Below are positions 1 to 26,961 of a stretch of DNA of 34,388 nt, piece by piece. Position numbers and translations under genes: made by a program. Origin of the DNA: a virus; IMG/VR virus record IMGVR_UViG_3300021963_000385, positions 1 to 34,388 of that record. One strand, written 5' to 3'. Within the stretch, counting starts at the first letter, position 1, and every line of letters starts with the position of its first letter. The notes below the pieces were generated by a model, which saw nothing but the letters and a program-made list of their open reading frames with translations, did no database searches and had not been told where the DNA came from.

Positions 1-668
1 TATTAAATGTCGACATTAGCAATATTATAGCTGCATCTAAGTCTAATGAATTAAGTTTTGATAACTTGTACTTTTTTAATCCAGATCAGAATGATTTTCT
101 CTCTAACGCTATTACAGGAAATCGGCAGGAAGAACTTCCTCGTGATCCTGATACAGCTAGAAATACGACAGGTATCTCAGCTATTGGATTTACATTAAAG
201 ATATTGGATTACATTAAAAAAGCAGTTGACCAGAATATTACTCAAGATGATAATACATATCCTAAAAAAATATTTTTAAATATTCCAGAGGTTAAACATG
301 CAGATACTCAACCACATCTTAAAACATACTTAAAAAAAGAAGATTACGATACAATTTTAGAGTATGCTGTATCAAATGGATTTACAGTAATTAATCCATG
401 GGAACTGACATTTAAACAACAAGTTCTTCATGCAAGAAATGCTGAGGAAATACTTACAGTACCTAGTAGCAATGCTATTCATTCAATGTGGGGCGGGGAT
501 AAAAGTAGATTCATCTACTTCAACCCATATACTTTCCATTTCTTTGCTTTCGACTATATCATTAGACACTATGCAAAGAATAATGAAATAATTTATGGGC
601 AGTCTAAGGATCAGCTATTCATGGGGGCATTTAACCAGTTAAAAACTCTACATATTAAGCTTATATAG
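1..668 (+). CDS. GT61-like glycosyltransferase, 5'-truncated by the window
   Basis: The reading frame is open from base 3 to the TAG at 666-668 with no convincing start, so the gene begins upstream and only its C-terminal part (about 221 codons) is seen. The visible half resembles the C-terminal half of GT61 (DUF563) glycosyltransferases: a segment reading GFTVINPWELTFKQQ, then NAEEILTVPSSNAIHSMWG, which matches in order the family's Gf-iv-pe-lsf-eQ and HGsgl-N elements, with the HGSG motif degenerate. The likely role is transfer of a sugar to a glycan or protein in the host cytoplasm; donor and acceptor are unknown. It converges on the minus-strand gene at 671 with only two bases between the stops, leaving no room for a terminator. 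A GT-like fold is likely; activity is less certain because of the degenerate motif. Confidence 0.5.
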   Translation, partial: LNVDISNIIAASKSNELSFDNLYFFNPDQNDFLSNAITGNRQEELPRDPDTARNTTGISAIGFTLKILDYIKKAVDQNITQDDNTYPKKIFLNIPEVKHADTQPHLKTYLKKEDYDTILEYAVSNGFTVINPWELTFKQQVLHARNAEEILTVPSSNAIHSMWGGDKSRFIYFNPYTFHFFAFDYIIRHYAKNNEIIYGQSKDQLFMGAFNQLKTLHIKLI

Positions 669-670
669 CT

Positions 671-1978
671 CTATTGGGAGAGTATGTTTAATATCTCAGG
701 GTCCCGCTTTATTATATCAATTACCGTTCGGCTATTTAAATCAATATTATTTACCTGCTTGTATCTGATGCCCAGATCTTGAGCCATTGAGTAGTGCCAT
801 GGGTGATACTCCCCAAAGTTTCTTAAAACCTGATTACAGGCCTCTGAGAAGGCATCTGGGCTTATGTCACCAGACTCTAGATCTGCTCCAATATCCATAA
901 CCCTTTGGTTTACATCCAGACCATTTACTTGGAAGAATTTAGTCTTAATTTCTACTACATTGGATTTATATCTATCCATAAATATCATATTCTGCAAAGC
1001 ACTGCTAGATATGGATACAAGTGTCTTAACTTCACTAAAATATCGAATGTTCTCTTCTATTGAGCACCCGCCGACGCACTTGACCTTTTTATGGGCCATA
1101 TTATCATTATGTAAAGTTGTATACTCTATACACTCTTCTTTATGAAATTGAAATCCTGGCTCTATGCACTCAAATCCATAAGACTGTAAAAACTCTTCTA
1201 GCTCGTTTTCGTTATATATTCTTTTTGTTAAGACATCTTGCTCAATTAAGGCTTCACATATACTGCCGTACCCTTTATCTGAATATATAACCTCTCTAGG
1301 CATATCCAAAGAAACAATAGGGGTATTTGTATTTCTAAGCAGATATCTTGGCGTCTTCCATTTGCCAAACCACAAGCTTTTAGTCGCATATACTTTTCTC
1401 CAGGGCTCTACAGATCCTTTAAATAAGTATTCATTAATTCTTTTTAGATCATAGTCATAGTCAAGATTGGTTGCCCAAAAATTATCAACTTCGTAGATTG
1501 TTGGCTGATCATTAAAAATGTAATCTTTAACATTAAAATCAACCATCAGCCTTTCTGTAAAACTTTTGTAATACGGATCTTGTGGTGTAAAGGTTCCATC
1601 AATATGGGACCCTAGTAAAAAAATTTTTGAGTCTGTTAAATTTCTATCTTTGATATAAAATAAAGCTTTAAACAATCTATAATAGTATTGATGCCAGACA
1701 TGTCCAAATTGAGATATTAAATATAGCGCTGGCTGACTTAAGAAAAATTTTACGCTATCAGATAAATCTGTTATATGTTTATACTCTACCTTATCGTATT
1801 CCTCCCAGCATTTAGTATGGATATTTGGGCTTATATCTAATTGATGATGTGGGCAAGTGTTGGGGGAAGAAAAATACTCTTGAATCTTTTCGTAGTCTTT
1901 TGTAATAAATAAAACTTTGCCACCAAAAGTTACGACAAAATGCTTTTCTTTATAAAAAGATCTCTTATCAAATGCCAT
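671..1978 (-). CDS. GT61-like glycosyltransferase (435 aa)
   Basis: A 435-residue protein with no signal peptide or membrane segment. The C-terminal half follows the GT61/DUF563 pattern loosely: WRKVYATKS near residue 195 (family: vYisR), YGFECIEPG near 266, and then SIEENIRYFSEVKTLVSISSSALQNMIFMD, which corresponds to the Q-lf-a-iva-hGs-l-N block. The classical HGSG motif reads SISSSA here. It is probably a sugar transferase working with the two other GT61-like genes nearby. The ATG at 1978 has no Shine-Dalgarno; a TGC plus TATCAT extended -10 lies 6 bases upstream, so the mRNA is probably leaderless. Its promoter lies back to back with that of the sulfotransferase gene at 2017. Confidence 0.5.
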   Translation of the reverse strand: MAFDKRSFYKEKHFVVTFGGKVLFITKDYEKIQEYFSSPNTCPHHQLDISPNIHTKCWEEYDKVEYKHITDLSDSVKFFLSQPALYLISQFGHVWHQYYYRLFKALFYIKDRNLTDSKIFLLGSHIDGTFTPQDPYYKSFTERLMVDFNVKDYIFNDQPTIYEVDNFWATNLDYDYDLKRINEYLFKGSVEPWRKVYATKSLWFGKWKTPRYLLRNTNTPIVSLDMPREVIYSDKGYGSICEALIEQDVLTKRIYNENELEEFLQSYGFECIEPGFQFHKEECIEYTTLHNDNMAHKKVKCVGGCSIEENIRYFSEVKTLVSISSSALQNMIFMDRYKSNVVEIKTKFFQVNGLDVNQRVMDIGADLESGDISPDAFSEACNQVLRNFGEYHPWHYSMAQDLGIRYKQVNNIDLNSRTVIDIIKRDPEILNILSQ

Positions 1979-1984
1979 TAAACA

Positions 1985-1993
1985 ATGATAGCA
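1985..1993 (-). promoter_or_regulatory. Extended -10 promoter for the 671-1978 gene
   Basis: Read on the minus strand this is TGC followed by TATCAT, ending 6 bases before the ATG at 1978. Transcription would start at or next to the ATG, giving a leaderless mRNA. No clear -35 box is needed for the extended -10 class. Confidence 0.5.
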
Positions 1994-1998
1994 TATTA

Positions 1999-2007
1999 TG
2001 GTATAAT
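1999..2007 (+). promoter_or_regulatory. Extended -10 promoter for the 2017 gene
   Basis: TGG followed by TATAAT (2002-2007), 9 bases before the ATG at 2017. The expected start of transcription lies within a few bases of the ATG, and no Shine-Dalgarno is present. It sits 5 bases from the oppositely oriented promoter at 1985-1993, so the two polymerase sites cannot be occupied together. Confidence 0.6.
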
Positions 2008-2016
2008 GTTAGTAAT

Positions 2017-2682
2017 ATGATTCCTTCAAAATCACAATATGCACTAATCAATAGTTTTCCTAGATCTGGTTCTACTTTTTTGCACTCCGCACTGGATAAA
2101 TACCATGCTCAATTTACATTTGTAGAAGAAGATGAAGAATATCTTGATAGATACTGTACGCTACATACTGCGTCGCTTCCTCATGTAATTGAAAACCCAT
2201 TGATTAAAACTATGTCAATATTAAGAGACCCATACGATGCAATAACTTCCCTGCTATACACAAAGTATAAGCATATTGGAATGCAAGAGTTCAGACAAAG
2301 CGATATATTGTTTTATGCAAATATGTATTTAGAATTTACCACTGCAATTGAAAAAATGAACGGTTCTGAAAATTTTATAGCTATAGATTTTAATGAGATG
2401 ATAGAGAACCCATCTGCAGTATGCGAAAGAATTATAGCTAAATTTAATTTATACAGGAATAAACCTTCTAAAATTACAAATGAAGATCTTGTAATATTAG
2501 TTAAACAACAAATGATAGATTCTGGTCAACTATCTTCTGAGTCCAGAGGATCTGTAGAAGTAAGTTTTATGCCAGAGAAAAAAGATCCTTTTAGAAATAC
2601 ATTCTCTGCTTTGGTTAAGGAATCTAAAAAAGAAATTGATCCAGCTTTTAAAGCTTATAAAAAAGTTTTAAAGAGCATTTGA
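2017..2682 (+). CDS. Sulfotransferase-like protein
   Basis: A 221-residue protein with the two hallmark PAPS-binding elements of sulfotransferases: NSFPRSGSTFL at residues 12-22 (5'-phosphosulfate loop, family pattern PrSGTTwL) and RDPYDAITSLLY at 70-81 (3'-phosphate motif, family pattern RnPkdv-vSyy). A later FNEMIENPSAV resembles the family's yEdl-dP segment. The expected reaction is transfer of sulfate from PAPS to a hydroxyl of a sugar or other small or glycan acceptor; the acceptor is not visible. I prefer the ATG at 2017 over an in-frame ATG at 1972 because the -10 box at 2002-2007 lies between them. It is short for the family, near the minimal cytoplasmic single domain. Neighbouring GT61-like genes suggest a glycan acceptor. 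Confidence 0.72.
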   Translation: MIPSKSQYALINSFPRSGSTFLHSALDKYHAQFTFVEEDEEYLDRYCTLHTASLPHVIENPLIKTMSILRDPYDAITSLLYTKYKHIGMQEFRQSDILFYANMYLEFTTAIEKMNGSENFIAIDFNEMIENPSAVCERIIAKFNLYRNKPSKITNEDLVILVKQQMIDSGQLSSESRGSVEVSFMPEKKDPFRNTFSALVKESKKEIDPAFKAYKKVLKSI

Positions 2683-2693
2683 TAAAAAACATT

Positions 2694-2702
2694 TGATATA
2701 AT
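2694..2702 (+). promoter_or_regulatory. Extended -10 promoter for the HNH gene
   Basis: TGA followed by TATAAT (2697-2702), 8 bases before the ATG at 2711 with no Shine-Dalgarno between. It has the same layout as the other leaderless promoters in this window. Confidence 0.6.
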
Positions 2703-2710
2703 TTAGCTAT

Positions 2711-2992
2711 ATGAAGACTGAAAAGGTCTCAATCGCTAAGCAGAAAGCCTCTTTGTATAAATATATACGAGAATATAAGGAAAAACATCCTTGTGCCGAC
2801 TGCAAGATACAGTACCCTTATTATGTTATGGACTTCGATCATGTTCGTGGTAAAAAACACAAAAACGTTATGGAGATTGTTCCAACGCTATCTAAGTCTA
2901 AAGTAGATGAAGAGATAGCAAAGTGTGAAGTAGTATGTTCTAATTGTCATAGAGCTAGGACTCATATGAGAAAAATATCAAAAGCATCTTAA
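2711..2992 (+). CDS. Small HNH endonuclease-like protein
   Basis: A 93-residue protein with a zinc-HNH core: CADC at residues 28-31, the catalytic-type DFDHVRG at 41-47 and CSNCHRART at 76-84, where the two CxxC pairs would hold zinc and the histidines bind the metal at the active site. HNH proteins of this size act as free-standing homing-type or DNA-processing nucleases in many phages; which role applies here is not visible. The N-terminus is Lys-rich. The gene has its own leaderless promoter and converges with the minus-strand glycosyltransferase, their stops overlapping by four bases. It sits between a sulfotransferase and a glycosyltransferase, consistent with an independent insertion (moron-like), though no flanking repeats were seen. 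Confidence 0.75.
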   Translation: MKTEKVSIAKQKASLYKYIREYKEKHPCADCKIQYPYYVMDFDHVRGKKHKNVMEIVPTLSKSKVDEEIAKCEVVCSNCHRARTHMRKISKAS

Positions 2993-4149
2993 TCTTTCAA
3001 CCAGCCGTTTATATTCATAGCATTTTTTTCTTTATATATCTGTTTCCATCTTCTATCTTCAATACAAGATAAGGGCAAAGTTTTATCATCCATACAACCT
3101 GCAATAGGACTAAATAAAAAGAAAAAGTTTTGCCACCAACCGTTTTCTGCTACTGGAAGCATTATCTCATATATGTTTGTATCTTTGTCGCAGACAAACG
3201 TATTTACCAAACCAGACCCATGCAGTGCAACTACACTTCTAGTATTTAGCAATATTTCTAGCTGATCTATATAATTTAGCTCTTCCATGTAAACAACTTC
3301 GTATCCAATATTTTTAAAATAATTTTCAAAAAACTCTTCGTTATGGTAAGATCTATTGATAAAAGTTTTATGTCTTGCTTCAATGTCTTTAGCATCACTT
3401 GCATTTTTGAAGTCTTCAAAATATTTTTTAGTGGTTTTTGTTCTAGATATGTAAACACCTTTAGACTTGTTTTCTTTTTTAGTCAAGCAAGATAAAACTT
3501 TTTCTTTAAAACGCTCAATACCGTATCTTACAAAATAGTCGTAATTATAACTGTACTCAGATAAAATTTGCATTTTATATCTCTTATCTTCAGGCAAATG
3601 TTGTTGTACTACAAGTGGTTGAATTTTTAAACAAGCAGTATTAGCTTCCCACTTTTGTTTTTCTGATTCTTTGTACCATTCTGGAAGTTTTGACTTTGCA
3701 TTTACATAAACTTCTTCTGGAATCATCTTATGCAAGTCTACAATCATGTATGCTTCTTTAAACATAACACTTGAAGACAAAATGTTAAAGCATTCGGTTT
3801 GCGTTATAGGATAATGATTTGAATATACATACGGAATAAACTCTTGAATACTGTGATCTTTAATTATAAGACTTCCTCTTTTACCTTCAGAGATAAAGAA
3901 TGGAAGTATGTCACTATCAAAAGTATTAAGTGCTTCAAACTGTCCACATAAATCTGGTATAGCATGAAACTGATTGTAGTACCCTAACAAAAAAGGATAA
4001 GACTTTTCTTCAACTACTTTGAGATCTCCACCGTTATCAATTTTTAAGTTCTTGAATTTAATAACTTCTACAGAGTATGTTTTTTTATAATGACATTCTA
4101 CTTCTAGACTAAATGGGATATACTCTATGCTTTCGCACGAGATTTTCAT
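2989..4149 (-). CDS. GT61 family glycosyltransferase
   Basis: A 386-residue protein with the best GT61 (DUF563) signature of the three in this window: GVYISRTKTTKKY near residues 231-243, YEVVYMEELNYIDQLEILLN near 283-302, and VALHGSGLVNTFV near 307-319, followed by IYEIMLP. This order and spacing are typical of the family, which transfers sugars such as GlcNAc, xylose or arabinose to protein or glycan hydroxyls. No membrane segment or signal peptide is seen. I take the ATG at 4149, which overlaps the stop of the upstream dioxygenase gene as TGATG; a TTG one codon earlier is possible. The two genes therefore look translationally coupled, linking a hydroxylase to a glycosyltransferase in one transcript. 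Confidence 0.75.
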   Translation of the reverse strand: MKISCESIEYIPFSLEVECHYKKTYSVEVIKFKNLKIDNGGDLKVVEEKSYPFLLGYYNQFHAIPDLCGQFEALNTFDSDILPFFISEGKRGSLIIKDHSIQEFIPYVYSNHYPITQTECFNILSSSVMFKEAYMIVDLHKMIPEEVYVNAKSKLPEWYKESEKQKWEANTACLKIQPLVVQQHLPEDKRYKMQILSEYSYNYDYFVRYGIERFKEKVLSCLTKKENKSKGVYISRTKTTKKYFEDFKNASDAKDIEARHKTFINRSYHNEEFFENYFKNIGYEVVYMEELNYIDQLEILLNTRSVVALHGSGLVNTFVCDKDTNIYEIMLPVAENGWWQNFFFLFSPIAGCMDDKTLPLSCIEDRRWKQIYKEKNAMNINGWLKD

Positions 4150-4802
4150 CAATATTTATTTTTTTCGTAAAAATCTGCAACCTTAATAAATCCTGGCATA
4201 ACATATCTTATTGGCCCATCTCCAACATGCTTAACTCCATGGTTAAACTCATCTGTTCCAGGAAACATTATCAGTGATCCAGCTTTAGGCTTTATTTCAA
4301 AATCCTTGTTTGGCCAGAAAATCTCTCCGTCTGTGTAATCCTCATTTAGATAAAGAACTGCTGCATACTTAATACTTGGATCCGTATGCTGATCAGTATG
4401 AGCTTTAAGCTCTACACCTTTTTGCATTCTTTGAAAGATACCAAAAGATAAATGAAGGGTGGGATCTGACTTAGCAATCAAATCTGTAAGTCTAGTTGTA
4501 ACTGTTCGTGAAACTGGATAGCTTATAACTAAAAGATTCTTGTCGTCCCAGCCTCTTGTTATCTCATACTTTCCTTCAGCTACAAGATTTTCAACATCAT
4601 CTCTTCCAAACTTTTCCATACAAAATTTTGCTAGATGGTCTCTATAATGAACAAACCATTGCTCTTCTGGAGTGCTGTTGATTATATCCCAAAACTCTGA
4701 CAACTCTGAACTTGTTATAAAGTTTTCTACAATAAGAATTCCCTCAACTGGTTCCTTTGGATCGAAACCAGCGTCAATTAGCTCTTGCTTTAAAAATGTC
4801 AT
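4149..4802 (-). CDS. 2OG-Fe(II) dioxygenase, prolyl-4-hydroxylase-like
   Basis: A 217-residue protein with the double-stranded beta-helix core of 2-oxoglutarate/Fe(II) dioxygenases. Iron ligands are H135 and D137 (KAHTDQH) and H188 (FNHGV), and R199 is in place to bind 2-oxoglutarate. The strand YLNEDYTDGEIFWP and the KPKAGSLIMFPG turn are typical of the prolyl-4-hydroxylase branch. These enzymes hydroxylate proline or another substrate using O2 and 2-oxoglutarate; the substrate cannot be read. It has a leaderless promoter (TGA plus TACAAT, 6 bases before the ATG) and its stop overlaps the start of the GT61 gene downstream. It is one of six such enzymes in the window and the only one on the minus strand. 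Confidence 0.85.
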   Translation of the reverse strand: MTFLKQELIDAGFDPKEPVEGILIVENFITSSELSEFWDIINSTPEEQWFVHYRDHLAKFCMEKFGRDDVENLVAEGKYEITRGWDDKNLLVISYPVSRTVTTRLTDLIAKSDPTLHLSFGIFQRMQKGVELKAHTDQHTDPSIKYAAVLYLNEDYTDGEIFWPNKDFEIKPKAGSLIMFPGTDEFNHGVKHVGDGPIRYVMPGFIKVADFYEKNKY

Positions 4803-4808
4803 GTATAC

Positions 4809-4817
4809 ATTGTATCA
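4809..4817 (-). promoter_or_regulatory. Extended -10 promoter for the dioxygenase-GT61 pair
   Basis: Minus-strand TGA followed by TACAAT, with 6 bases (GTATAC) before the ATG at 4802. There is no Shine-Dalgarno, so a leaderless message is expected covering the dioxygenase and the GT61 gene. Confidence 0.6.
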
Positions 4818-5029: not shown

Positions 5030-5521
5030 TTATAGTATATCTGTAAAATAGTTTCCATTAATGTAAATCTTAGATGCGGTAGTTAATGTATATGGACTAG
5101 TTGATGTTAAAGTAAATTCTCTTACTGGTTTAGGTGTTGGAGTATCTCCGCCAAGCCAATGTAAATCTAATGTCTGGCTTCCTGGCAAATGATCGCAGTT
5201 AAGTATTATGTGGTTTGCTAGATCTGGATTTCCTTGTGACGGATCATACCAGACCCACCCTGGAAAGTGGTTCATTGTTCCAGCATGTGGAGAAAAAGGA
5301 AGATCTACTTTAAGCTGACCCGTCCCAAAGTTAGTAACTGTAGACAAGTCTATTTGAATCCAAAAGCTAACATTGTATCCAGACTTTGAGTAGACTGATC
5401 CAGCTGTTGGGTATGTGGAATTTGTTCCAGTGAATGTCATACCTGTTGCAGAAAATACTGGACTCCAATGAATTGGAGGTTGTGGAGGTATTGGGCCTAT
5501 TCCTACTGTATTAAATGGCAC
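5030..5521 (-). CDS. Putative virion-associated beta-rich protein
   Basis: A 163-residue protein rich in Thr, Ser, Gly, Pro and aromatics, with no membrane segment and only one Cys. A Pro-rich N-terminus (GPIPPQPPIHWSP) is followed by alternating polar and hydrophobic strands and a tail of TLTSTSPYTLTTASKIYING. The composition resembles small phage fibre-tip or decoration proteins, but I do not recognise a named family. Its start overlaps the end of the 93-residue gene upstream by eleven bases, so the two are one operon and probably coupled. It is separated from the main structural cluster, next to the tRNAs. Confidence 0.5.
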   Translation of the reverse strand: MPFNTVGIGPIPPQPPIHWSPVFSATGMTFTGTNSTYPTAGSVYSKSGYNVSFWIQIDLSTVTNFGTGQLKVDLPFSPHAGTMNHFPGWVWYDPSQGNPDLANHIILNCDHLPGSQTLDLHWLGGDTPTPKPVREFTLTSTSPYTLTTASKIYINGNYFTDIL

Positions 5522-5792
5522 GTTCTATCACCAATATCGCTGCCGTCATTGTATTACTTGAACATACTGCGTAAAGTCTATTTAGAGAAGAGAACTCAAT
5601 TGTAAATCCTTGACCAGGATACAATTTATATCCGTAAGAAGATGTTGACACATTAGGAGATCCAAGATATATATATCCAGAGTCATTGTTATTTTGAACA
5701 ACAAGTGTGTAGCTTGATTGAACAACGTCTTCAAATGTTAAAGCTACAGGAGTACTTGTTGATAAAGTTACTGTTTTATGTCTAGTCTGCAT
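5511..5792 (-). CDS. Small beta-sandwich virion-type protein
   Basis: A 93-residue protein with the pattern SGYIYLGSPNVSTSSYGYKLYPGQ, then SLNRLYAVCSSNTMTAAILVIERA. This layout (an IYlG-p-VS turn, a PGq strand, RLYAV-s and a final I-V-E-A strand) recurs in many small phage proteins annotated as structural or hypothetical near head or baseplate genes. A role as a decoration or adaptor protein is inference. The message is probably leaderless: TATAAT lies 6 bases before the ATG at 5792, with TTGGAA 17 bases further upstream. That -35 box lies in one arm of a perfect 14-base inverted repeat (5816-5855), so control by a protein or by the overlapping small RNA is possible. Confidence 0.55.
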   Translation of the reverse strand: MQTRHKTVTLSTSTPVALTFEDVVQSSYTLVVQNNNDSGYIYLGSPNVSTSSYGYKLYPGQGFTIEFSSLNRLYAVCSSNTMTAAILVIERAI

Positions 5793-7376: not shown

Positions 7377-8375
7377 ATGAAAATATCTTATCACACAGCT
7401 AAACAATCATTAAATCCAGCAATCGGATATGGTTATGCTGGTGGGAATATTGTAAGATCTTTGCAACAACTTGGTCATGAAGTTAATATTGATGATGAAA
7501 CTGCAAAGGTACAATTAAATTTTTGTCAGCCAGATTATTTTAAGTTTAATAAAAATCAGTATCAAATTGGATATACACCTTGGGAATCTACTGTAATAAA
7601 AAAAGAATGGGTTGTACTATTTAATAGATGTGATGAAGTCTGGACAACATCTGATTGGTGTGCAAATGTTTTTCAAGAAAATGGAGTTAAAGTAGATATA
7701 AAAGTTTTTCCACATGGTATTGAAGACATATGGTCTCCAACCAAAAGAGTTGTTGCTGATGATAGGCCTTTAAAGTTTTTACATGTTGGAGAACCAGCAC
7801 CTAGAAAAGGTGGACAAATGGCTCTTGATGCTTTTGTAAAATATTTTGCTGGAGATGAGCGTTATTCTTTAACTATTAAAGGACATTATACTAATAGTAC
7901 TAGAGTATATATTAATGATAATAAGATATCTACTCCTAATATATATAATAATATAAAGATTATAACAGACGAGTTAGATTTAAGTCAACTAGTAGATTTA
8001 TACAAGTCCCACCATGTTTTGATTTATCCAGGATGGGGAGAAGGATTTGGTCTTATTCCATTTCAAGCATTAGCAACTGGAATGCCAACAATTTGTACAG
8101 AATCTTGGGCACACTATAAAGAATATCTTGGACCCCTAAAGCTTAACTCAACACTTACAGATGAAGCAATACCAAATACAATTAAGAGTATACATCTTGG
8201 ACAAATGTTTAAACCAGATAAAGAAAACTTAGAAGAGCATATGCTTTTTGTTGCAAAAAACTTTAAAGCAATGTCAGGTTATTATTATGCACAGTCAAGT
8301 AGACTACATAAAGATTACAATTGGTTACAGTTGACTAATAATGCTTTTGAGCACATTTTTAAAAAGTTTTCTTAA
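7377..8375 (+). CDS. GT4-type glycosyltransferase
   Basis: A 332-residue GT-B-fold glycosyltransferase. The C-terminal half has KFLHVGEPAPRKGGQMALDAF at 133-153 (the start of the nucleotide-sugar domain) and the donor-binding GEGFGLIPFQALATGMP at 221-237, the E-x7-E-like loop of GT4 family enzymes. The N-terminal half contains GYTPWES and EVWTTSDW, typical acceptor-domain segments of retaining glycosyltransferases. Donor and acceptor are unknown; protein, teichoic-acid-like or cell-surface glycan are all possible. An in-frame TTG at 7338 would add 13 residues, but the ATG at 7377 begins the conserved beta strand. The gene is followed by nrdJ after 90 bases. It is unrelated in fold to the GT61 group at the left of the window. 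Confidence 0.82.
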   Translation: MKISYHTAKQSLNPAIGYGYAGGNIVRSLQQLGHEVNIDDETAKVQLNFCQPDYFKFNKNQYQIGYTPWESTVIKKEWVVLFNRCDEVWTTSDWCANVFQENGVKVDIKVFPHGIEDIWSPTKRVVADDRPLKFLHVGEPAPRKGGQMALDAFVKYFAGDERYSLTIKGHYTNSTRVYINDNKISTPNIYNNIKIITDELDLSQLVDLYKSHHVLIYPGWGEGFGLIPFQALATGMPTICTESWAHYKEYLGPLKLNSTLTDEAIPNTIKSIHLGQMFKPDKENLEEHMLFVAKNFKAMSGYYYAQSSRLHKDYNWLQLTNNAFEHIFKKFS

Positions 8376-20045: not shown

Positions 20046-20684
20046 ATGCCTATTACTAAAGTTAGCTATCCTTATGCTAATGATACTTTACAGCTACCGA
20101 CAGCGGCAGTCAGTAATAGGCTTTCTGTAAACGGAATTTCAACTTTCTTACAGCCCATAACAACGTCATCTACATTAAGTATTGGTGGAGTTTTAAATAT
20201 AAATGCTCTATCACCAACAATTGCATCTAATAATGCGTCCGTAGCGAGTATATTTACTTCATCAGTAACTAGTATTATTCTTGGATCTTCTACAATTAAA
20301 ACTGTAGAGTATCCAGCAGACGGAACAACTGAATCAAGCGCAAACGCATCAGGATATATGGGTATGCCTCGTGGAAACAGTGGAAATGCTATTACTGGCG
20401 CATATGGTATTACTGCAGCAGATGCAGGAAAACATTTGTATATAACAACTAGTGGTCAAACGGTAACGATACCAGCTAACGCATCAGTTGCGTTGCCAAT
20501 TGGCACAACTATTGTTTTTGTAAATGGAAATGGCGTAACAACAACAATTGCAATAACAACTGATACTTTAAGACAAGCGAATACAGCAAATACAGGAAGC
20601 CGAACATTAGCTTCAAATGGCATGGCCACTCTAGTAAAAATAACTGCTACAGAGTGGATTATCGGAGGAAATGGTCTTTCCTAA
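20046..20684 (+). CDS. Short fibre/structural protein (212 aa)
   Basis: A Thr/Ser/Ala-rich protein with an N-terminal stretch of short repeats (LSVNGISTFLQPI, LSIGGVLNINAL) and a C-terminal part (GKHLYITTSGQTVTIPANASVALPIGTTIVFVNGNG) that resembles the beta-helical or knob segments seen at the ends of phage fibres, finishing with ATLVKITATEWIIGGNGLS, a common fibre C-terminal ending. No Cys or enzymatic motif is seen. The stop TAA overlaps the next start as TAATG, so translation of the Phe/Pro-repeat protein is probably coupled to it, suggesting the two products are made together. Confidence 0.65.
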   Translation: MPITKVSYPYANDTLQLPTAAVSNRLSVNGISTFLQPITTSSTLSIGGVLNINALSPTIASNNASVASIFTSSVTSIILGSSTIKTVEYPADGTTESSANASGYMGMPRGNSGNAITGAYGITAADAGKHLYITTSGQTVTIPANASVALPIGTTIVFVNGNGVTTTIAITTDTLRQANTANTGSRTLASNGMATLVKITATEWIIGGNGLS

Positions 20685-21190
20685 TGGCATCAAAAGAAAA
20701 CGATAGCAAAGACAAGAATAATAAAAAAGCCACAGGAGTTGTAATGGCTACTATTGTTTCTGCACCGTTCTTCCCGCCTTACTTTCCGTTTTTTCCTCCC
20801 TTCTTTCCTTTCTTTCCCCCTTACTTTCCTTTCTTTCCACCATTCTTCCCTTACTTCCCATTCTTCCCACCGTTCTTCCCGTTCTTCCCTCCTTTCTTCC
20901 CATTCTTCCCACCGTTCTTCCCTTACTTCCCATACTTCCCATTCTTCCCTTACTTCCCGTTCTTCCCACCGTTCTTCCCATTCTTCCCGCCGTACTTCCC
21001 GTACTTCCCTTACTTCCCATTCTTCCCTTACTTCCCATTCTTCCCACCGTTCTTCCCGTTCTTCCCACCGTACTTCCCATTCTTCCCACCTTTCTTCCCA
21101 CCGTTCTTTGGGTCAGCCTGTGGATCTGCATGTTCAGGATGTTTCCCAGGAAGTTTTGGTCCTGGATGTATTTGTGGATGTGCAGTTTAA
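20684..21190 (+). CDS. Phe/Pro-repeat protein with Cys-rich C-terminus
   Basis: A 168-residue low-complexity protein. The first 20 residues are Lys/Asp/Asn-rich. From about residue 28 to 143 almost every residue is Phe, Pro or Tyr, in units such as FFPPFFPFFPPYFP; the last 27 residues are Gly/Cys-rich (GSACGSACSGC, then CICGCAV) with six Cys. No known family was recognised. A second start at 20744 (MATIVSAPFFPPY) has AGGAG five bases upstream, so a shorter form without the charged head is possible. Roles as a virion surface, membrane-contact or adhesive protein are all conceivable. The DNA reads as repeats in every frame, so ORFs in other frames here are accidental. Its many prolines make it a candidate substrate for the hydroxylase-like genes downstream (inference). 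Confidence 0.65.
   Translation: MASKENDSKDKNNKKATGVVMATIVSAPFFPPYFPFFPPFFPFFPPYFPFFPPFFPYFPFFPPFFPFFPPFFPFFPPFFPYFPYFPFFPYFPFFPPFFPFFPPYFPYFPYFPFFPYFPFFPPFFPFFPPYFPFFPPFFPPFFGSACGSACSGCFPGSFGPGCICGCAV
20764..21109 (+). repeat. Long pyrimidine-rich tandem repeat tract
   Basis: About 345 bases in which the plus strand is overwhelmingly C and T, made of irregular TTCTTCCC and TACTTCCC units that encode the Phe/Pro repeats. Purines appear mainly in the TAC (Tyr) codons and at third positions of CCA and CCG. Length variation by slippage and triplex formation are plausible for such a tract. Confidence 0.85.
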
Positions 21191-21986: not shown

Positions 21987-22694
21987 ATGGAATACGCAGA
22001 CCAACAAGATCATTGGTTCAACAAGGATAGATCAGAAACAGCTGCAAATAGAATGACTGAAAGACAGGTTAATAGTTTAATAACAACAACGAACCCTGGT
22101 CTAGGTCTAAATATCTATCACAATGTTTTTTCAAGAGAAGATGCAACAAGATATATTTCTACTCTTGAGTCAAATCTGACAGATGGGAAAGTTTATCGAT
22201 GGTCTGAGGCTCAAGTAACAAACTCAACAACGCCAGTTAAAAAAGCTAGAGACTGTGTTGACTTTAGATACAAGCAAGAAAACCTTGGCCCAAGAAATGA
22301 TAACAATGCAGAGTTAATTGATTTGCATCAAGAGATTTATGAAAAGCTTAAGTTGTGTATCGACGACTATTGTAGATACTGGGGAATCAATATAACGTAT
22401 TACGAAGCCTTTAACTTTGTAAAGTATGAAGGAGAAGGAAAGCATTTTAGAATACACGCAGATCATGGCCCAGCCTATAACTGTACAGTATCAGCTGTTA
22501 TCTATATAAACGATGACTATGAGGGCGGAGAACTTCAATTCCCAAGATTAGATAATTTAGTATACACTCCAAAGTCTGGAGACATAGCAGTGTTTCCTTC
22601 AAACTATGTTTATGAACATGCATCTTTGCCAATGAAGAGTGGTACAAAATACTGTGTAGTCGTTATGACTGATTTAAGCAGTAGGTCTCATTAA
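21987..22694 (+). CDS. 2OG-Fe(II) dioxygenase 1, prolyl-4-hydroxylase-like
   Basis: A 235-residue enzyme. Iron ligands are H157 and D159 (FRIHADHGP) and H211 (YEHASLP), and K221 in SGTKY is placed to bind 2-oxoglutarate, as in prolyl-4-hydroxylases. The strand YINDDYEGGELQFP (174-187) and TPKSGDIAVFPS are shared with the other cluster members. The N-terminal 140 residues, with CVDFRYKQ and the segment YYEAFNFVKYEGEG, closely match the enzyme at 23481, so the two are recent paralogues. The substrate is unknown. The stop TAA overlaps the next start as TAATG, coupling it to the DUF6065-like gene. Confidence 0.88.
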   Translation: MEYADQQDHWFNKDRSETAANRMTERQVNSLITTTNPGLGLNIYHNVFSREDATRYISTLESNLTDGKVYRWSEAQVTNSTTPVKKARDCVDFRYKQENLGPRNDNNAELIDLHQEIYEKLKLCIDDYCRYWGINITYYEAFNFVKYEGEGKHFRIHADHGPAYNCTVSAVIYINDDYEGGELQFPRLDNLVYTPKSGDIAVFPSNYVYEHASLPMKSGTKYCVVVMTDLSSRSH

Positions 22695-23476
22695 TGCAAA
22701 ATGAAAATTCAAGCCATTTAATTTTATTTAGAGGGACTAATTCTTCGTTGACAGAGGATAGTCCGTCAGTACCATCTCCAACACAATCAGAGATTCCAGA
22801 TTGGTATAAAGAGGCAGATAGATTTGCAAAGATGCCAAATGGAGAATACTATAAGGCTCCACAAGCAGTTTGTCCATTTCCAAAAGAAGGAACAACTAAT
22901 GACTATGGCATGATTCCAACCTGGAAAGCATGTCCAGCTATTCTAGATGCATTTATGACTGGTTATGTTTTAAAAACCCCTTGCGATATTACATTTTTTA
23001 AAAATGACTATGGAAAGATAGATGTAAAAGTTGAAGACGAAAGATATAGATCTTTTTGTACTAAACGGCCCCCAATGCTGCAATTCAAACATCCAGTTGG
23101 ATATTATGAAGATCATTTTTCATGGTTTCCAGATTGGGGTCTAACTCTTCCAGAAGGATATAGTTGCTTATACATGACTCCAATGAATAGATTCGATTTG
23201 CCATTTTTAAATACAACTGGGATTGTGGATAATGATAAAGTAAATCTTTCTGGGTCTTTCCCATTTTTTATAATAAAAGATTGGGAGGGAACAGTTCCAG
23301 CAGGAACTCCTTACATGCAGATACTTCCATTTAAAAGAGAAAACTGGTATCATGAGAAAGAGTTCTTATCTGAAAGAGAAATACAATTAGAATTTTTTAA
23401 TAACGCTAAAAAATATAGGGTTCCAGATGGTGGAGTCTATAAGGACAAAGTTTGGTCCAGAAGAGAATATAGGTAA
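22694..23476 (+). CDS. DUF6065-like protein (260 aa)
   Basis: A 260-residue protein that begins, after a disordered 30 residues, with IPDWYKEADRFAKMP, then WKACPAILDAFMTGYVLKTPCDITFF near 76-101, HFSWFPDWGLTLPEGYSCLYMTPMNRFDLPF near 137-167 and VPAGTPYMQILPFKRENW near 207-224. This order resembles the phage family DUF6065, whose function is not established; the fold is likely a beta sandwich. A second, more diverged copy lies at 24137. Both alternate with dioxygenase genes and are coupled to them, so a partner or substrate-binding role is plausible (inference). The family name is from memory of sequence pattern, not a search. Confidence 0.6.
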   Translation: MQNENSSHLILFRGTNSSLTEDSPSVPSPTQSEIPDWYKEADRFAKMPNGEYYKAPQAVCPFPKEGTTNDYGMIPTWKACPAILDAFMTGYVLKTPCDITFFKNDYGKIDVKVEDERYRSFCTKRPPMLQFKHPVGYYEDHFSWFPDWGLTLPEGYSCLYMTPMNRFDLPFLNTTGIVDNDKVNLSGSFPFFIIKDWEGTVPAGTPYMQILPFKRENWYHEKEFLSEREIQLEFFNNAKKYRVPDGGVYKDKVWSRREYR

Positions 23477-23480
23477 TATT

Positions 23481-24137
23481 ATGAAAACATGGACAGATAA
23501 AGAAAATCTTGGAAATGGTATTGTTCGCTATTCAAATGTCATCAAACCAGAGTTTGATGTAATCAATCGTTTAGAGAATTTGTTAGCACCAGTTGGAACA
23601 ACAAATAGATATGCTTGGCAGCCAGCATATGTTGGGTATAAAGAATTGATGCCAGACTATAGAGACTGCACAGATTTTAAATTTAAGAAAACTGACTTAC
23701 ATTTTGATAAGAGTGAGACTTCTTTGCAGCTACAAAATTTGTGGCAGGATGTATATGATGCTCAATCTGCTGCAGTTGATGATTATAGACGAGACTATAA
23801 TATCATGGAGTTAAAATACTGGGAAGCATTTAATTTTATTAAGTATGGTCCAGGACAACACTTTCAAGAGCACCATGATCATGGTTTTTCTTACAACTGT
23901 ACTGTTTCTTTAGTTGCTTATCCTAATGATGATTACGAAGGTGGAGAACTTTACTTTAGACTTCAAGATTTAAGCATTAAGCCAAAAGCTGGAGATCTAT
24001 ATATATTCCCATCAAATTTCATGTACCCGCACAGAGCTATGCCAGTTCATAGCGGCACAAAGTATTCAATTGTTACAATGCTTGATTACAATAAAAAGTT
24101 TCACACCCCTGAGATGTATCGACCAGACGAGGACTAA
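23481..24137 (+). CDS. 2OG-Fe(II) dioxygenase 2, prolyl-4-hydroxylase-like
   Basis: A 218-residue enzyme starting at the ATG at 23481, four bases after the previous stop; an in-frame start at 23427 would overlap the upstream gene and is unlikely. Iron ligands are H131 and D133 (QEHHDHG) and H184 (YPHRAMP), with K194 in SGTKY for 2-oxoglutarate. It shares with the enzyme at 21987 the segments RDCTDFKFK, YWEAFNFIKYGPG and YNCTVSLVAY, plus NDDYEGGELYF. These shared extra segments, beyond the catalytic core, mark a gene duplication. Its stop and the next start overlap as TAATG. Confidence 0.88.
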   Translation: MKTWTDKENLGNGIVRYSNVIKPEFDVINRLENLLAPVGTTNRYAWQPAYVGYKELMPDYRDCTDFKFKKTDLHFDKSETSLQLQNLWQDVYDAQSAAVDDYRRDYNIMELKYWEAFNFIKYGPGQHFQEHHDHGFSYNCTVSLVAYPNDDYEGGELYFRLQDLSIKPKAGDLYIFPSNFMYPHRAMPVHSGTKYSIVTMLDYNKKFHTPEMYRPDED

Positions 24138-24862
24138 TGCTTAACATATCTGTTGAAAAATCTATGGACTCAGTAATATCTATAGCGCCAATGTCAATTA
24201 AAAGAAATTGGATGGATGATACACCAGAAAAGCATGCCTATAGATGTTTCCCAGTTACACAAGCAAATATGGTTGGTTGGTACCTGTACTCAGAAAAAGA
24301 TGTTGAGTTTACCTGGAATGGCATTAATGATACGAGCTCAGAAAATGTTCAGATTACAAAGGGGACAGAATTTACTTATTCTGGAAGAGGACAGTCTACT
24401 GTAAGTTTTAATACTGGATTAACTTTTAGAACAGATGAGAATATTAGCCTTTTGACTATAAATCCAGTTAATTATTTTAATGAAGATTTTGAAACAATGT
24501 CTTCATTAATAAGTACATCTTGGCTCGATGTATCTTTACCGTTGGCAATTAAAGCAAGGTCAGCAAATAAAAATATAGTTATAAAGTCTGGTACTCCGTT
24601 AGCAACAATTATTCCTATATCATTAACTGCTATGAATGACACAGAAATTAATATTTTTGATTATTCTGATCCTGATAGAAAAAGAGAGCATGCCCATAGA
24701 TCCTATGGAGAGGCAGCTCAAGAAATAAATAAACAGGGTAAATGGACAGATTGGTATAGGGATGCTGTCAATGAAAAAGGCGAAAGCCTTGGTTCTCATG
24801 AAACAAAGGTAATAAGACTTTCAGTGCTAGACAATACCAAAAAGAGAAATGATATAATGTAA
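24137..24862 (+). CDS. Second DUF6065-like protein (241 aa)
   Basis: A 241-residue protein with the same order of elements as the gene at 22694: HAYRCFPVTQANMVGWYLYSEKDVEFTW near 33-60, FRTDENISLLTINPVNYF near 96-113, SWLDVSLPLAIKA near 129-141 and VIKSGTPLATIIPISL near 147-162. Identity is low but the layout (x-C-P-x5-G-Y/W-x-l-x-x-x-D-v-x-F, then the L-x-x-x-P hairpin, then the P-L-a or P-F-f strand and the G-T-P hairpin) fits a diverged paralogue. The C-terminus is charged and helical. Function is unknown. The stop lies inside the promoter region of the next dioxygenase gene. Confidence 0.55.
   Translation: MLNISVEKSMDSVISIAPMSIKRNWMDDTPEKHAYRCFPVTQANMVGWYLYSEKDVEFTWNGINDTSSENVQITKGTEFTYSGRGQSTVSFNTGLTFRTDENISLLTINPVNYFNEDFETMSSLISTSWLDVSLPLAIKARSANKNIVIKSGTPLATIIPISLTAMNDTEINIFDYSDPDRKREHAHRSYGEAAQEINKQGKWTDWYRDAVNEKGESLGSHETKVIRLSVLDNTKKRNDIM
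24850..24858 (+). promoter_or_regulatory. Extended -10 promoter for dioxygenase 3
   Basis: TGA plus TATAAT (24853-24858), 6 bases before the ATG at 24865 and embedded in the last codons of the preceding gene. A leaderless message starting at the third dioxygenase gene is expected. Confidence 0.6.
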
Positions 24863-24864
24863 TT

Positions 24865-25536
24865 ATGGATATAATGAACATGAGCCACGAAGAAAGAAAG
24901 TCAATCACCCCGTCTGGATTTTTTGGAAATAGCAAAGACATGATAGTTGAGCTAGAAAATTTTATGACTGAAGATGAGATTAATTTTTTAGAAAACGCTG
25001 CTAGAAATATTAAAATTTGGGATGTAACTGAAAGCCATACAAACGAAAACGGCACAGTCATCTATGATGCAGATTATTGGAAGGACAGGGTGGCTAGCAG
25101 ACCTTCTTTAGATAAGAATGATCCAGCCATAGGTCCAGTAATAGAAGGCTTATTTAAAAAGCTTAAGCCAGTAATTGAAAATTTTTATAATGTAGTAGCA
25201 GTTCCAACAGGACAAACAATAGTTAGATGGCTACCAGGACAGTTGCAAAATCCGCATGCAGATAAAGAACTACATGATGGACCTGATGCTGGATTGCCAA
25301 ATGACTTTCCTTACTACGACATAGCAAGTTTATTTTATTTAAACGATGACTACGAAGGCGGAGAACTATATTTCCCATTACAAGGAATTCAGTTCAAGCC
25401 AAAGCGTGGAGCAGCCTACTTCTTCCCAGGAGATAAGAATTTTATACATGGAGTAACTGAAATTAAAAGTGGTATTAGATACACATGTCCATTTTTTTGG
25501 ACAATCATAAAGCACACTGGAGAGAACAAGCCATGA
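24865..25536 (+). CDS. 2OG-Fe(II) dioxygenase 3, prolyl-4-hydroxylase-like
   Basis: A 223-residue enzyme. Iron ligands are H131 and D133 (NPHADKELH) and H195 (FIHGVTE), with R205 in SGIRY as the likely 2-oxoglutarate contact, where cluster members 1, 2 and 5 have Lys. The strand YLNDDYEGGELYFP and KPKRGAAYFFPG complete the jelly-roll core. The sequence between H131 and the strand (ELHDGPDAGLPNDFPYYD) is longer than in the neighbours and may shape the active site. Three Met codons occur in the first six residues; the one at 24865 is nearest the promoter. The last bases overlap the next gene as ATGA. Confidence 0.88.
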   Translation: MDIMNMSHEERKSITPSGFFGNSKDMIVELENFMTEDEINFLENAARNIKIWDVTESHTNENGTVIYDADYWKDRVASRPSLDKNDPAIGPVIEGLFKKLKPVIENFYNVVAVPTGQTIVRWLPGQLQNPHADKELHDGPDAGLPNDFPYYDIASLFYLNDDYEGGELYFPLQGIQFKPKRGAAYFFPGDKNFIHGVTEIKSGIRYTCPFFWTIIKHTGENKP

Positions 25537-26279
25537 ATTTAATTAAACATACTAATAATATTTTTGTTTATGAAGATTTTCTTTCGCCAGAAGAATGTTC
25601 TGCTGTAATAAAAGTATTGGATAAGCAGGCATCTAATGGAAAGATTTCTTGGATGCCAATTTCTTTTTACGAGTCATACTCTTCAGTTACGCCACAAGAC
25701 GGAGACTCAGAGTTAGAGGAATTTGGTTTGCCATCTAACTTCTTTTCTAATTTAAAGAATAAGTTTATAGAGTCAGTTGCAGAGGTTGGAAATAAAGATG
25801 TGTCTAGTATTTTTGAAATAGGTTTTCACACTCAAAAGTGGGAACCAGGTGCATATGCCAGAATACACTCAGACAATACTGATGAAAAGGGAAATACAGG
25901 TCCTTTTGCTAGAAGTAGATACGCAGCATTTTTATATCTTAATGATGATTTTGAGGGTGGCTTACTAAGTTTTCCTTCCCAGAATTTAACAATTAGACCA
26001 AAGGTAGGAATGCTTGCGGCATTCGACGGAGGTTTTGAAAATATGCATGAGGTTACTATAATTACAAAAGGAACAAGATATACAATTGGATCTTTCTGGG
26101 ATGATAGAGCAGAATCAGATTATCCTCAAGAAGTTAGAGATGCTTGGGCAGAAGAAATGAAGAAGATTAGAGAGGCTCAAGAAGTTGAAAGATCAGAATG
26201 GCAAGAGTTATTAAAAGAAGGATATAAGCTTGATTTAGATGGACAAAAGTATAAATTTAAAGGAGACGATAATGAATAG
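25533..26279 (+). CDS. 2OG-Fe(II) dioxygenase 4, prolyl-4-hydroxylase-like
   Basis: A 248-residue enzyme. Iron ligands are H112 and D114 (ARIHSDNTD) and H172 (ENMHEVT), with R182 in KGTRY. The strand YLNDDFEGGLLSFP and RPKVGMLAAFDGG are typical. After the core, a charged helical tail of about 55 residues (residues 192-247, ending LDGQKYKFKGDDNE) is present in no other cluster member and may bind a partner. I start it at the ATG at 25533, which overlaps the previous stop (ATGA); an in-frame start 48 bases earlier lies inside the upstream gene and is unlikely. The gene overlaps the next one by eight bases. Confidence 0.88.
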   Translation: MNLIKHTNNIFVYEDFLSPEECSAVIKVLDKQASNGKISWMPISFYESYSSVTPQDGDSELEEFGLPSNFFSNLKNKFIESVAEVGNKDVSSIFEIGFHTQKWEPGAYARIHSDNTDEKGNTGPFARSRYAAFLYLNDDFEGGLLSFPSQNLTIRPKVGMLAAFDGGFENMHEVTIITKGTRYTIGSFWDDRAESDYPQEVRDAWAEEMKKIREAQEVERSEWQELLKEGYKLDLDGQKYKFKGDDNE

Positions 26280-26961
26280 AGAAGTATTAGAAGAAAAGAT
26301 TTATTACTATACAGATGTTTTTGAAGATCCAAAAAAGCTACTAGAAGTTATTGAGTCAACTGAGCTTAAAGACTTTGGCAGCTCTATATCAAAATGGTCT
26401 AGCTGGGACTCATGTAGCGGTGAAATGTATAACTATGGAACAGAAAAGATTATCTATGCTAATGAGGAGGAAAAGTCTCAGCCAGCAGACTCTAATGATG
26501 TAAGTTATATTTTTCATGCTATAAATAATGCATTTTATGAAGCATGCAAAGATTACGCCTTAGCACAAGGAGATCAAGAAGAGCCAAATTTCTACCCAGT
26601 TTTTCCAATCAAAAAGTATAAAGCTGGTACATTTATGGGTGCACATTATGATCAACAAGAGGGAGATAAAAGATTAAAGTATTCTATGGTCATGTATTTG
26701 AATGACGACTATGAGGGTGGAGAGCTTTCATTCACGATCAAGTCCCCAGATGCTCCTATTATTGAAGGTAAGCCTTCTGAAGATTTTAATGTAGCCGTTA
26801 TAGAAAATAAAGAAGCTCTAACAGTTTCTATTAAACCAAAGGCTGGAAGTATTGTTATCTTTCCTTCATCACCGCCTTACCACCACACAGCGCATTTAGT
26901 TAAAAGTGGATTTAAGTACATGGTTCCAAGCCACTGGATGTTTAAAAATATAGATGCATAA
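26272..26961 (+). CDS. 2OG-Fe(II) dioxygenase 5, prolyl-4-hydroxylase-like
   Basis: A 229-residue enzyme. Iron ligands are H125 and D127 (MGAHYDQQE) and H205 (YHHTAH), with K215 in SGFKY for 2-oxoglutarate. The strand YLNDDYEGGELSF is followed by an insertion of about 30 residues (KSPDAPIIEGKPSEDFNVAV and onward) before KPKAGSIVIFPS, not found in the other members. It starts at the ATG at 26272, overlapping the end of the previous gene. It ends the cluster: the next gene has its own promoter 33 bases downstream. Confidence 0.87.
   Translation: MNREVLEEKIYYYTDVFEDPKKLLEVIESTELKDFGSSISKWSSWDSCSGEMYNYGTEKIIYANEEEKSQPADSNDVSYIFHAINNAFYEACKDYALAQGDQEEPNFYPVFPIKKYKAGTFMGAHYDQQEGDKRLKYSMVMYLNDDYEGGELSFTIKSPDAPIIEGKPSEDFNVAVIENKEALTVSIKPKAGSIVIFPSSPPYHHTAHLVKSGFKYMVPSHWMFKNIDA

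Follow-up and report, generated by a model that had tools for sequence, protein, structure and literature searches.

Phage glycosyltransferases are known to glycosylate the virion in actinophages (Freeman 2023, through citations in PMC12363180 and PMC12619734), and in the actinobacterial phages Che8, Corndog and Myrna the glycosyltransferase genes lie near structural genes, in Corndog with an O-methyltransferase gene beside them (PMC4351075). Here we describe a block of genes in the first 4.8 kb of the 34,388-base IMG/VR virus record IMGVR_UViG_3300021963_000385 (the window, that is, the whole stretch of DNA analysed), from a virus known from environmental DNA alone. The block comprises three GT61-like genes (GT61-1, GT61-2 and GT61-3) and genes for a sulfotransferase, an HNH endonuclease and a 2-oxoglutarate (2OG)-Fe(II) oxygenase. 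It shares with the Che8, Corndog and Myrna systems the placement of glycosyltransferase genes near structural genes in phages of actinobacteria; in contrast, the accessible descriptions of those glycosyltransferases do not class them as GT61 and report neither a sulfotransferase nor a 2OG oxygenase alongside, and their modification itself has been demonstrated whereas the window system is known from genes alone.

The individual enzyme families occur in other settings. OM43 phages and cyanophages carry PF13469 sulfotransferases and PF13640 2OG oxygenases, but are not described there as one block with a GT61 gene; both families are on record from aquatic phages, their function being unclear, as is stated explicitly for phage sulfotransferases (PMC10580990). 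The plant hydroxyproline-rich glycoprotein pathway, in which a 2OG enzyme acts before glycosyltransferases, offers a likeness as an idea only: the 2OG oxygenase of the block lacks any sign of prolyl specificity, and the named plant GT61 enzymes have xylan or N-glycans as their substrates and not hydroxyproline (PMC13123520). A literature search combining phage, sulfotransferase, glycosyltransferase and prolyl 4-hydroxylase found no paper, subscription literature being mostly outside its reach.

Organization and conservation of the gene block

The order of genes in the window is GT61-1 (plus strand), GT61-2 (minus), the sulfotransferase (plus), the HNH endonuclease (plus), GT61-3 (minus) and the 2OG oxygenase (minus), followed by genes for tRNA-Asn and tRNA-Arg. 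Nearly the same gene block, in unchanged order, is present in three further IMG/VR contigs, 3300042890_001842 (L002, part of the 112-kb relative G001), 3300032294_001291 (L003) and 3300008107_000380 (L023); GT61-1 is found in three of the four contigs and was not detected by BLAST in L003. Because the order recurs in three other contigs, even with GT61-1 missing from one, the arrangement is more than chance, and the set named in the initial annotation does occur in relatives. The five genes on that list were all recovered, but it had missed the HNH endonuclease (2711–2992, plus strand; phrog_3106, E 3e-21) and the use of both strands.

The ratio of nonsynonymous to synonymous substitution rates (dN/dS, NG86 method) was 0.03–0.24 for all block genes across the four contigs, indicating purifying selection. 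The 2OG oxygenase and the HNH endonuclease are the best conserved proteins of the block (92–97% identity at dS 0.6–1.4), and the GT61 proteins and the sulfotransferase evolve faster. Between the window and L003, dS was 1.1–2.1 within the block compared with 0.18 for ribonucleotide reductase (RNR), 0.18 for lysozyme and 0.40 for a GT4 gene; since the block so far exceeds its flank, it has probably been exchanged between lineages, although the contrast was smaller and mixed in comparisons of the window with L002 and L023. A tblastn search of 50,697 phage records with these proteins as queries (GT61-3 and the sulfotransferase) returned zero matches, and scans of genome contigs with alignments of the two proteins, based on short peptide patterns that are weak for distant relatives, confirmed no relative.

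The genes of the block form four or more transcription units. In the window, a −10-like TANNNT box stands 6–9 nt before the start codon of every first gene whose upstream DNA can be read, four in all: TATCAT at 1985–1990 (minus), 6 nt 5' of the GT61-2 ATG and kept as TATNAT in all four contigs; TATAAT at 2002–2007 (plus), 9 nt 5' of the probable sulfotransferase ATG at 2017, and TATAAT at 2697–2702 (plus), 8 nt 5' of the HNH ATG, both likewise kept in four of four; and TACAAT at 4809–4814 (minus), 6 nt 5' of the 2OG ATG and kept in three of the four. GT61-1 also has the box in its two complete copies. Across the genome the box is no general rule: 9 of 35 window genes have it, as against 14% of random window ATGs, so that our assignment draws on the four first genes of the block together with their conservation. 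The spacing would fit leaderless transcripts, which are frequent in actinobacteria, and moron-like genes. Outside the block, TATAAT lies 6–7 nt before the starts at 24865 (2OG-C), 27417 (a LamG protein) and 31190 (a protease) on the plus strand and at 5792 (a small open reading frame (ORF), 5511–5792) on the minus strand, which suggests leaderless transcripts there too. Within the block, only the 2OG oxygenase and GT61-3 look translationally coupled: as the initial annotation had noted, the stop codon of the former and the start codon of the latter share one base in TGATG (4151–4147, minus), and all four contigs preserve this 1-nt overlap, as TGATG or TAATG. The 3' ends of the GT61-3 and HNH genes overlap by four bases.

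One canonical and two divergent GT61 proteins

GT61-3 (2989–4149, minus; 386 aa) is a canonical GT61 glycosyltransferase, with a PF04577 score of 48.6 bits (cut-off 27). Its motif residues comprise N59xxH62, D66, R236 in YISR, R266 before a conserved Glu, and HGSG at 310–313; N59xxH62, R236 and R266 are shared by the cassette alleles, and among six phage GT61-3 homologues neither the catalytic His nor either Arg varies, while the Asn is present in four of the six. In the EOGT structure reported in 2026, the GT61 Asn-Arg-Arg (N-R-R) constellation binds UDP, and the catalytic His lies three residues after the Asn (PMC13123520). For all three GT61 proteins of the block these residues were mapped by motif, not by atomic superposition. 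The best fold match of the AlphaFold2 model of GT61-3 (predicted local distance difference test score (pLDDT) 63.5, predicted template modelling score (pTM) 0.63) was POMGNT2, a GT61 protein O-mannose GlcNAc-transferase (Foldseek probability 1.00, E 6e-4), with Z 11.1 and a root-mean-square deviation of 4.6 over 255 residues, whereas the next unrelated fold reached Z 7.8; searching the PDB by sequence gave no meaningful match. The GT-B fold and PF04577 thus link GT61-3, with its NxxH and two Arg, to POMGNT2 and EOGT of animals, to plant xylosyl- and arabinosyltransferases and to bacterial PF04577 proteins, while it differs from POMGNT2 in having only 12% identity and an insertion between the two Arg. 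Judged by its motifs and model, GT61-3 most probably works as a UDP-sugar transferase.

The other two proteins are divergent. GT61-1 (3–668, plus) is represented in the window by its C-terminal 221 aa, the gene being cut by the contig edge, and scores 15.8 bits against PF04577, below the cut-off; its complete 357-aa homologue in L002 likewise stays below the cut-off of 27 at 15.7 bits. Profile comparison (hhalign, E 3e-5) and direct BLAST (E 2e-4) nevertheless link GT61-1 to GT61-3, and the L002 copy has an NxxH..D motif near its N terminus in register with that of GT61-3. GT61-2 (671–1978, minus; 435 aa) exceeds the cut-off at 33.3 bits, its best stretch covering only 31 residues; it is conserved in four contigs with dN/dS of 0.14–0.21, and its structure model (pLDDT 39.8) was too poor for a fold search. 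The count of three GT61-like genes in the initial annotation therefore holds, two by family score and GT61-1 by profile and BLAST.

The UDP-binding residues divide the three proteins. As mapped by motif, GT61-1 has the NxxH but carries N (in FLNIPE, where GT61-3 has YISR) at the first Arg site and K at the second, and every GT61-2 allele has ATK (as in the window) or ASK in place of ISR, with R or K at the second Arg site and Q at the Asn site. In EOGT, replacement of the first-site Arg by Lys abolishes activity (PMC13123520). Comparison of the active sites by motif (the initial annotation had suggested a structural one) thus favours GT61-3, where N-R-R and the His are present, and goes against GT61-1 and GT61-2, where the first Arg is lost. 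The degenerate HGSG that it had reported in two proteins is also found, as PSSN in GT61-1 and SSSA in GT61-2, but this motif alone is weak evidence: the His is variable in other phage GT61 proteins (T in contig L025, S in contig L026 and I in cyanophage Bellamy), and HGSG loss alone was rejected as proof of inactivity because phage GT61 proteins with intact arginines also lack that His. Loss of the ISR arginine appears more telling. Both proteins have been kept by selection despite losing the first UDP-binding Arg and HGSG; they probably lack the known mode of UDP binding, and may be pseudoenzyme partners of GT61-3 or enzymes with another donor.

Sulfotransferase and 2OG oxygenase

The sulfotransferase-like gene of the initial annotation (2017–2682, plus; ORF opening at 1972) encodes a protein of the 3'-phosphoadenosine-5'-phosphosulfate (PAPS)-dependent type, with PF13469 (33.1 bits) and PF00685 (31.6 bits) both above cut-off; a start at or near 2017 is backed by the homologues in L003 and L023. 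Its 5'-phosphosulfate-binding (5'-PSB) and 3'-phosphate-binding (3'-PB) motifs, FPRSGSTFL at 29–37 and RDPYxAIxS (R85, D86, P87 and S93), are invariant in the four alleles. The 2OG-Fe(II) oxygenase (4149–4802, minus), also correctly recognized at first sight, matches PF13640 at 43 bits, and its iron and 2OG ligands H135xD137, H188 and R199 are present and kept. The HxD...H triad with a basic 2OG-binding residue that marks prolyl 4-hydroxylases is thus found, but is common to most 2OG oxygenases and so is not specific; no family specific to prolyl 4-hydroxylases in Pfam, NCBIfam or PHROGs matched the protein, and cyanophage homologues gave weak matches only. By these measures it appears to be a generic PF13640 protein with no mark of a prolyl hydroxylase.

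Phage lineage and related genes

The window major capsid protein (MCP) is 59–62% identical to those of Streptomyces phages of the Stanwilliamsviridae, and the window has a common backbone order with Streptomyces phage Sham (glycosyltransferase, RNR, portal, protease, MCP); it is a Stanwilliamsviridae-like siphovirus. A GT4-type glycosyltransferase gene (7377–8375, plus; PF00534 and PF20706 above cut-off; phrog_2170) adjoins the RNR gene and occupies the same place in Sham. Given this common order, the RNR-adjacent GT4 gene is a property of the lineage and the block at 1–4.8 kb an addition at its outer edge. Sham has two glycosyltransferase genes at the corresponding flank, both GT4-type, with no sulfotransferase or 2OG oxygenase annotated at the site; the window adds the cassette and an array of 2OG genes. 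The near relative G001 encodes a WhiB-family transcription factor (L027 19612–19950, minus; PF02467 40.6 bits), a family limited to actinobacteria and their phages, and the host is therefore probably an actinobacterium.

The array consists of five more PF13640 2OG oxygenase genes (window 21987–26961, plus), interleaved with genes for a DUF6065 protein (24137–24862) and another protein (22694–23476), all conserved in G001. Just 5' of it lies a gene for an FFP/YFP repeat protein (20684–21190, plus; 168 aa from the ATG at 20684), which consists almost entirely of repeats. Its ends are conserved, its tail is rich in Cys and Gly, and it has a relative in L031 (7000–7911, minus; a 303-aa ORF); it looks truly coding, because Pro codons differ at the third base. 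In G001, a second grouping (L027 9549–13496, minus) comprises a fourth GT61 gene (PF04577 42 bits), whose 3' end is overlapped by an endonuclease-like gene, and a seventh 2OG gene about 2 kb on. A distant GT61-3 homologue in L025 lies 3' of a gene resembling terminase and is accompanied by GT2 and short-chain dehydrogenase/reductase (SDR) genes (L025 2923–4214 and 8001–10823); possible kinase and nucleotidyltransferase genes, without Pfam support, are also seen near it. The Bellamy GT61 gene (PF04577 61.8 bits) has glycosyltransferase, epimerase and nucleotidyl transferase genes around it.

Discussion

At the sequence level, GT61-3 shows a GT-B/GT61 fold with the known UDP-binding and catalytic-base residues, the sulfotransferase both PAPS-binding motifs and the 2OG oxygenase its iron and 2OG ligands; selection has kept the genes, and most are preceded by a promoter box of leaderless type. 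We tentatively read the block, at odds that we put a little short of even, as a moron-like, exchangeable gene set that borders the structural module and modifies a glycoconjugate, with its product on an exposed virion protein. GT61-3 would take a sugar from a UDP donor and attach it to a glycan or a protein hydroxyl, the sulfotransferase would add sulfate from host PAPS, and the 2OG enzyme would hydroxylate an acceptor or a sugar precursor, with GT61-1 and GT61-2 using another donor or serving as partners of GT61-3. The product would change the charge and recognition of the fibre, tail or capsid protein that carries it; this would account for alleles having diverged and for GT61-1 having been gained or lost. 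A glycoconjugate substrate is favoured by the GT2 and SDR genes near the L025 homologue, by the context of the Bellamy gene and by the adjoining structural module. The virion is our best guess as the target because virion glycosylation has been demonstrated in other actinophages, and it is plausible from the lineage, in which glycosyltransferase genes lie beside the structural module; modification of the host envelope follows close behind, and DNA hypermodification is unlikely.

Several points weigh against a virion role. No glycan, sulfate or hydroxyl has been observed on virions of this lineage, and the same enzymes would equally suit the host envelope. A one-pathway operon was rejected, the genes lying on both strands with their own promoter boxes. 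APS kinase was not found in the phage contigs searched, so that PAPS would have to be supplied by the host. GT61-3 relatives occur without a sulfotransferase, and the homologues in L025 and L026 have no adjacent 2OG gene, which weakens any scheme of hydroxylation followed by glycosylation. The initial annotation had envisaged such a scheme, a linked route of prolyl hydroxylation, glycosylation and sulfation of fibre proteins. Fibres are a plausible target of the block enzymes, but sequence alone names no substrate and does not decide for or against the linked route; L025 and L026, the separate promoter boxes, the generic 2OG oxygenase and the two GT61 proteins that lack the UDP-binding Arg do not speak for it. 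The most elaborate version, in which sulfated, glycosylated and hydroxylated residues would be carried by the phage's own fibre or repeat proteins (the repeat protein at 20684–21190 being the candidate substrate) and GT61-1 and GT61-2 would be pseudoenzyme partners or donor-switched glycosyltransferases, seems to us a long shot.

If the target were instead the surface polysaccharide or glycolipid of the actinobacterial host, the glycosyltransferases and the sulfotransferase would block superinfection or re-adsorption, much as serotype-converting phages modify the host surface. Bacterial GT61 proteins are often annotated in polysaccharide synthesis, the moron-like organization with own promoters and the exchange of alleles would match an interplay over surface antigens, and the GT2 and SDR neighbours in L025 agree with it. 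However, the nearest relatives are large RNR-bearing phages usually called lytic, for which lasting conversion would be less useful (integrase genes were not searched for), and no membrane-bound glycosyltransferase or flippase was recognized in the block; on balance we regard this explanation as rather unlikely, though it deserves serious weight. That the five enzymes share no pathway and have separate targets, having gathered at an insertion hot spot with the aid of the HNH endonuclease, would account for the use of both strands, the separate promoter boxes, the endonuclease within the block, the second grouping of GT61, endonuclease-like and 2OG genes in G001, and the GT61-3 genes without an adjacent 2OG gene in L025 and L026. 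Such an unlinked origin is made improbable by an order kept in four contigs even though most pairs have a dS close to 1 or higher, and by the 1-nt overlap of the 2OG and GT61-3 genes in all four. Least probable of all is DNA hypermodification, in which the 2OG enzyme would oxidize a DNA base and the glycosyltransferases would glycosylate it, although combinations of TET-like oxygenases and glycosyltransferases acting on phage DNA are known (Pyle 2024, as cited in PMC12619734). The phage records searched, which may be incomplete, gave no match to a C5-methyltransferase (PF00145) and no thymidylate-synthase-type hydroxymethylase, and the 2OG oxygenase of the block belongs to PF13640, with no Tet_JBP (PF12851) match above cut-off. 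We also know of no role for sulfotransferases in DNA modification.

A small, conserved block that couples a sulfotransferase and a 2OG oxygenase to one GT61 protein that clearly looks active and two degenerate ones offers a tractable route to the targets of phage sulfation and hydroxylation. Should the target prove to be the virion, sulfated glycans would be, as far as we know, a chemistry new to phage particles.

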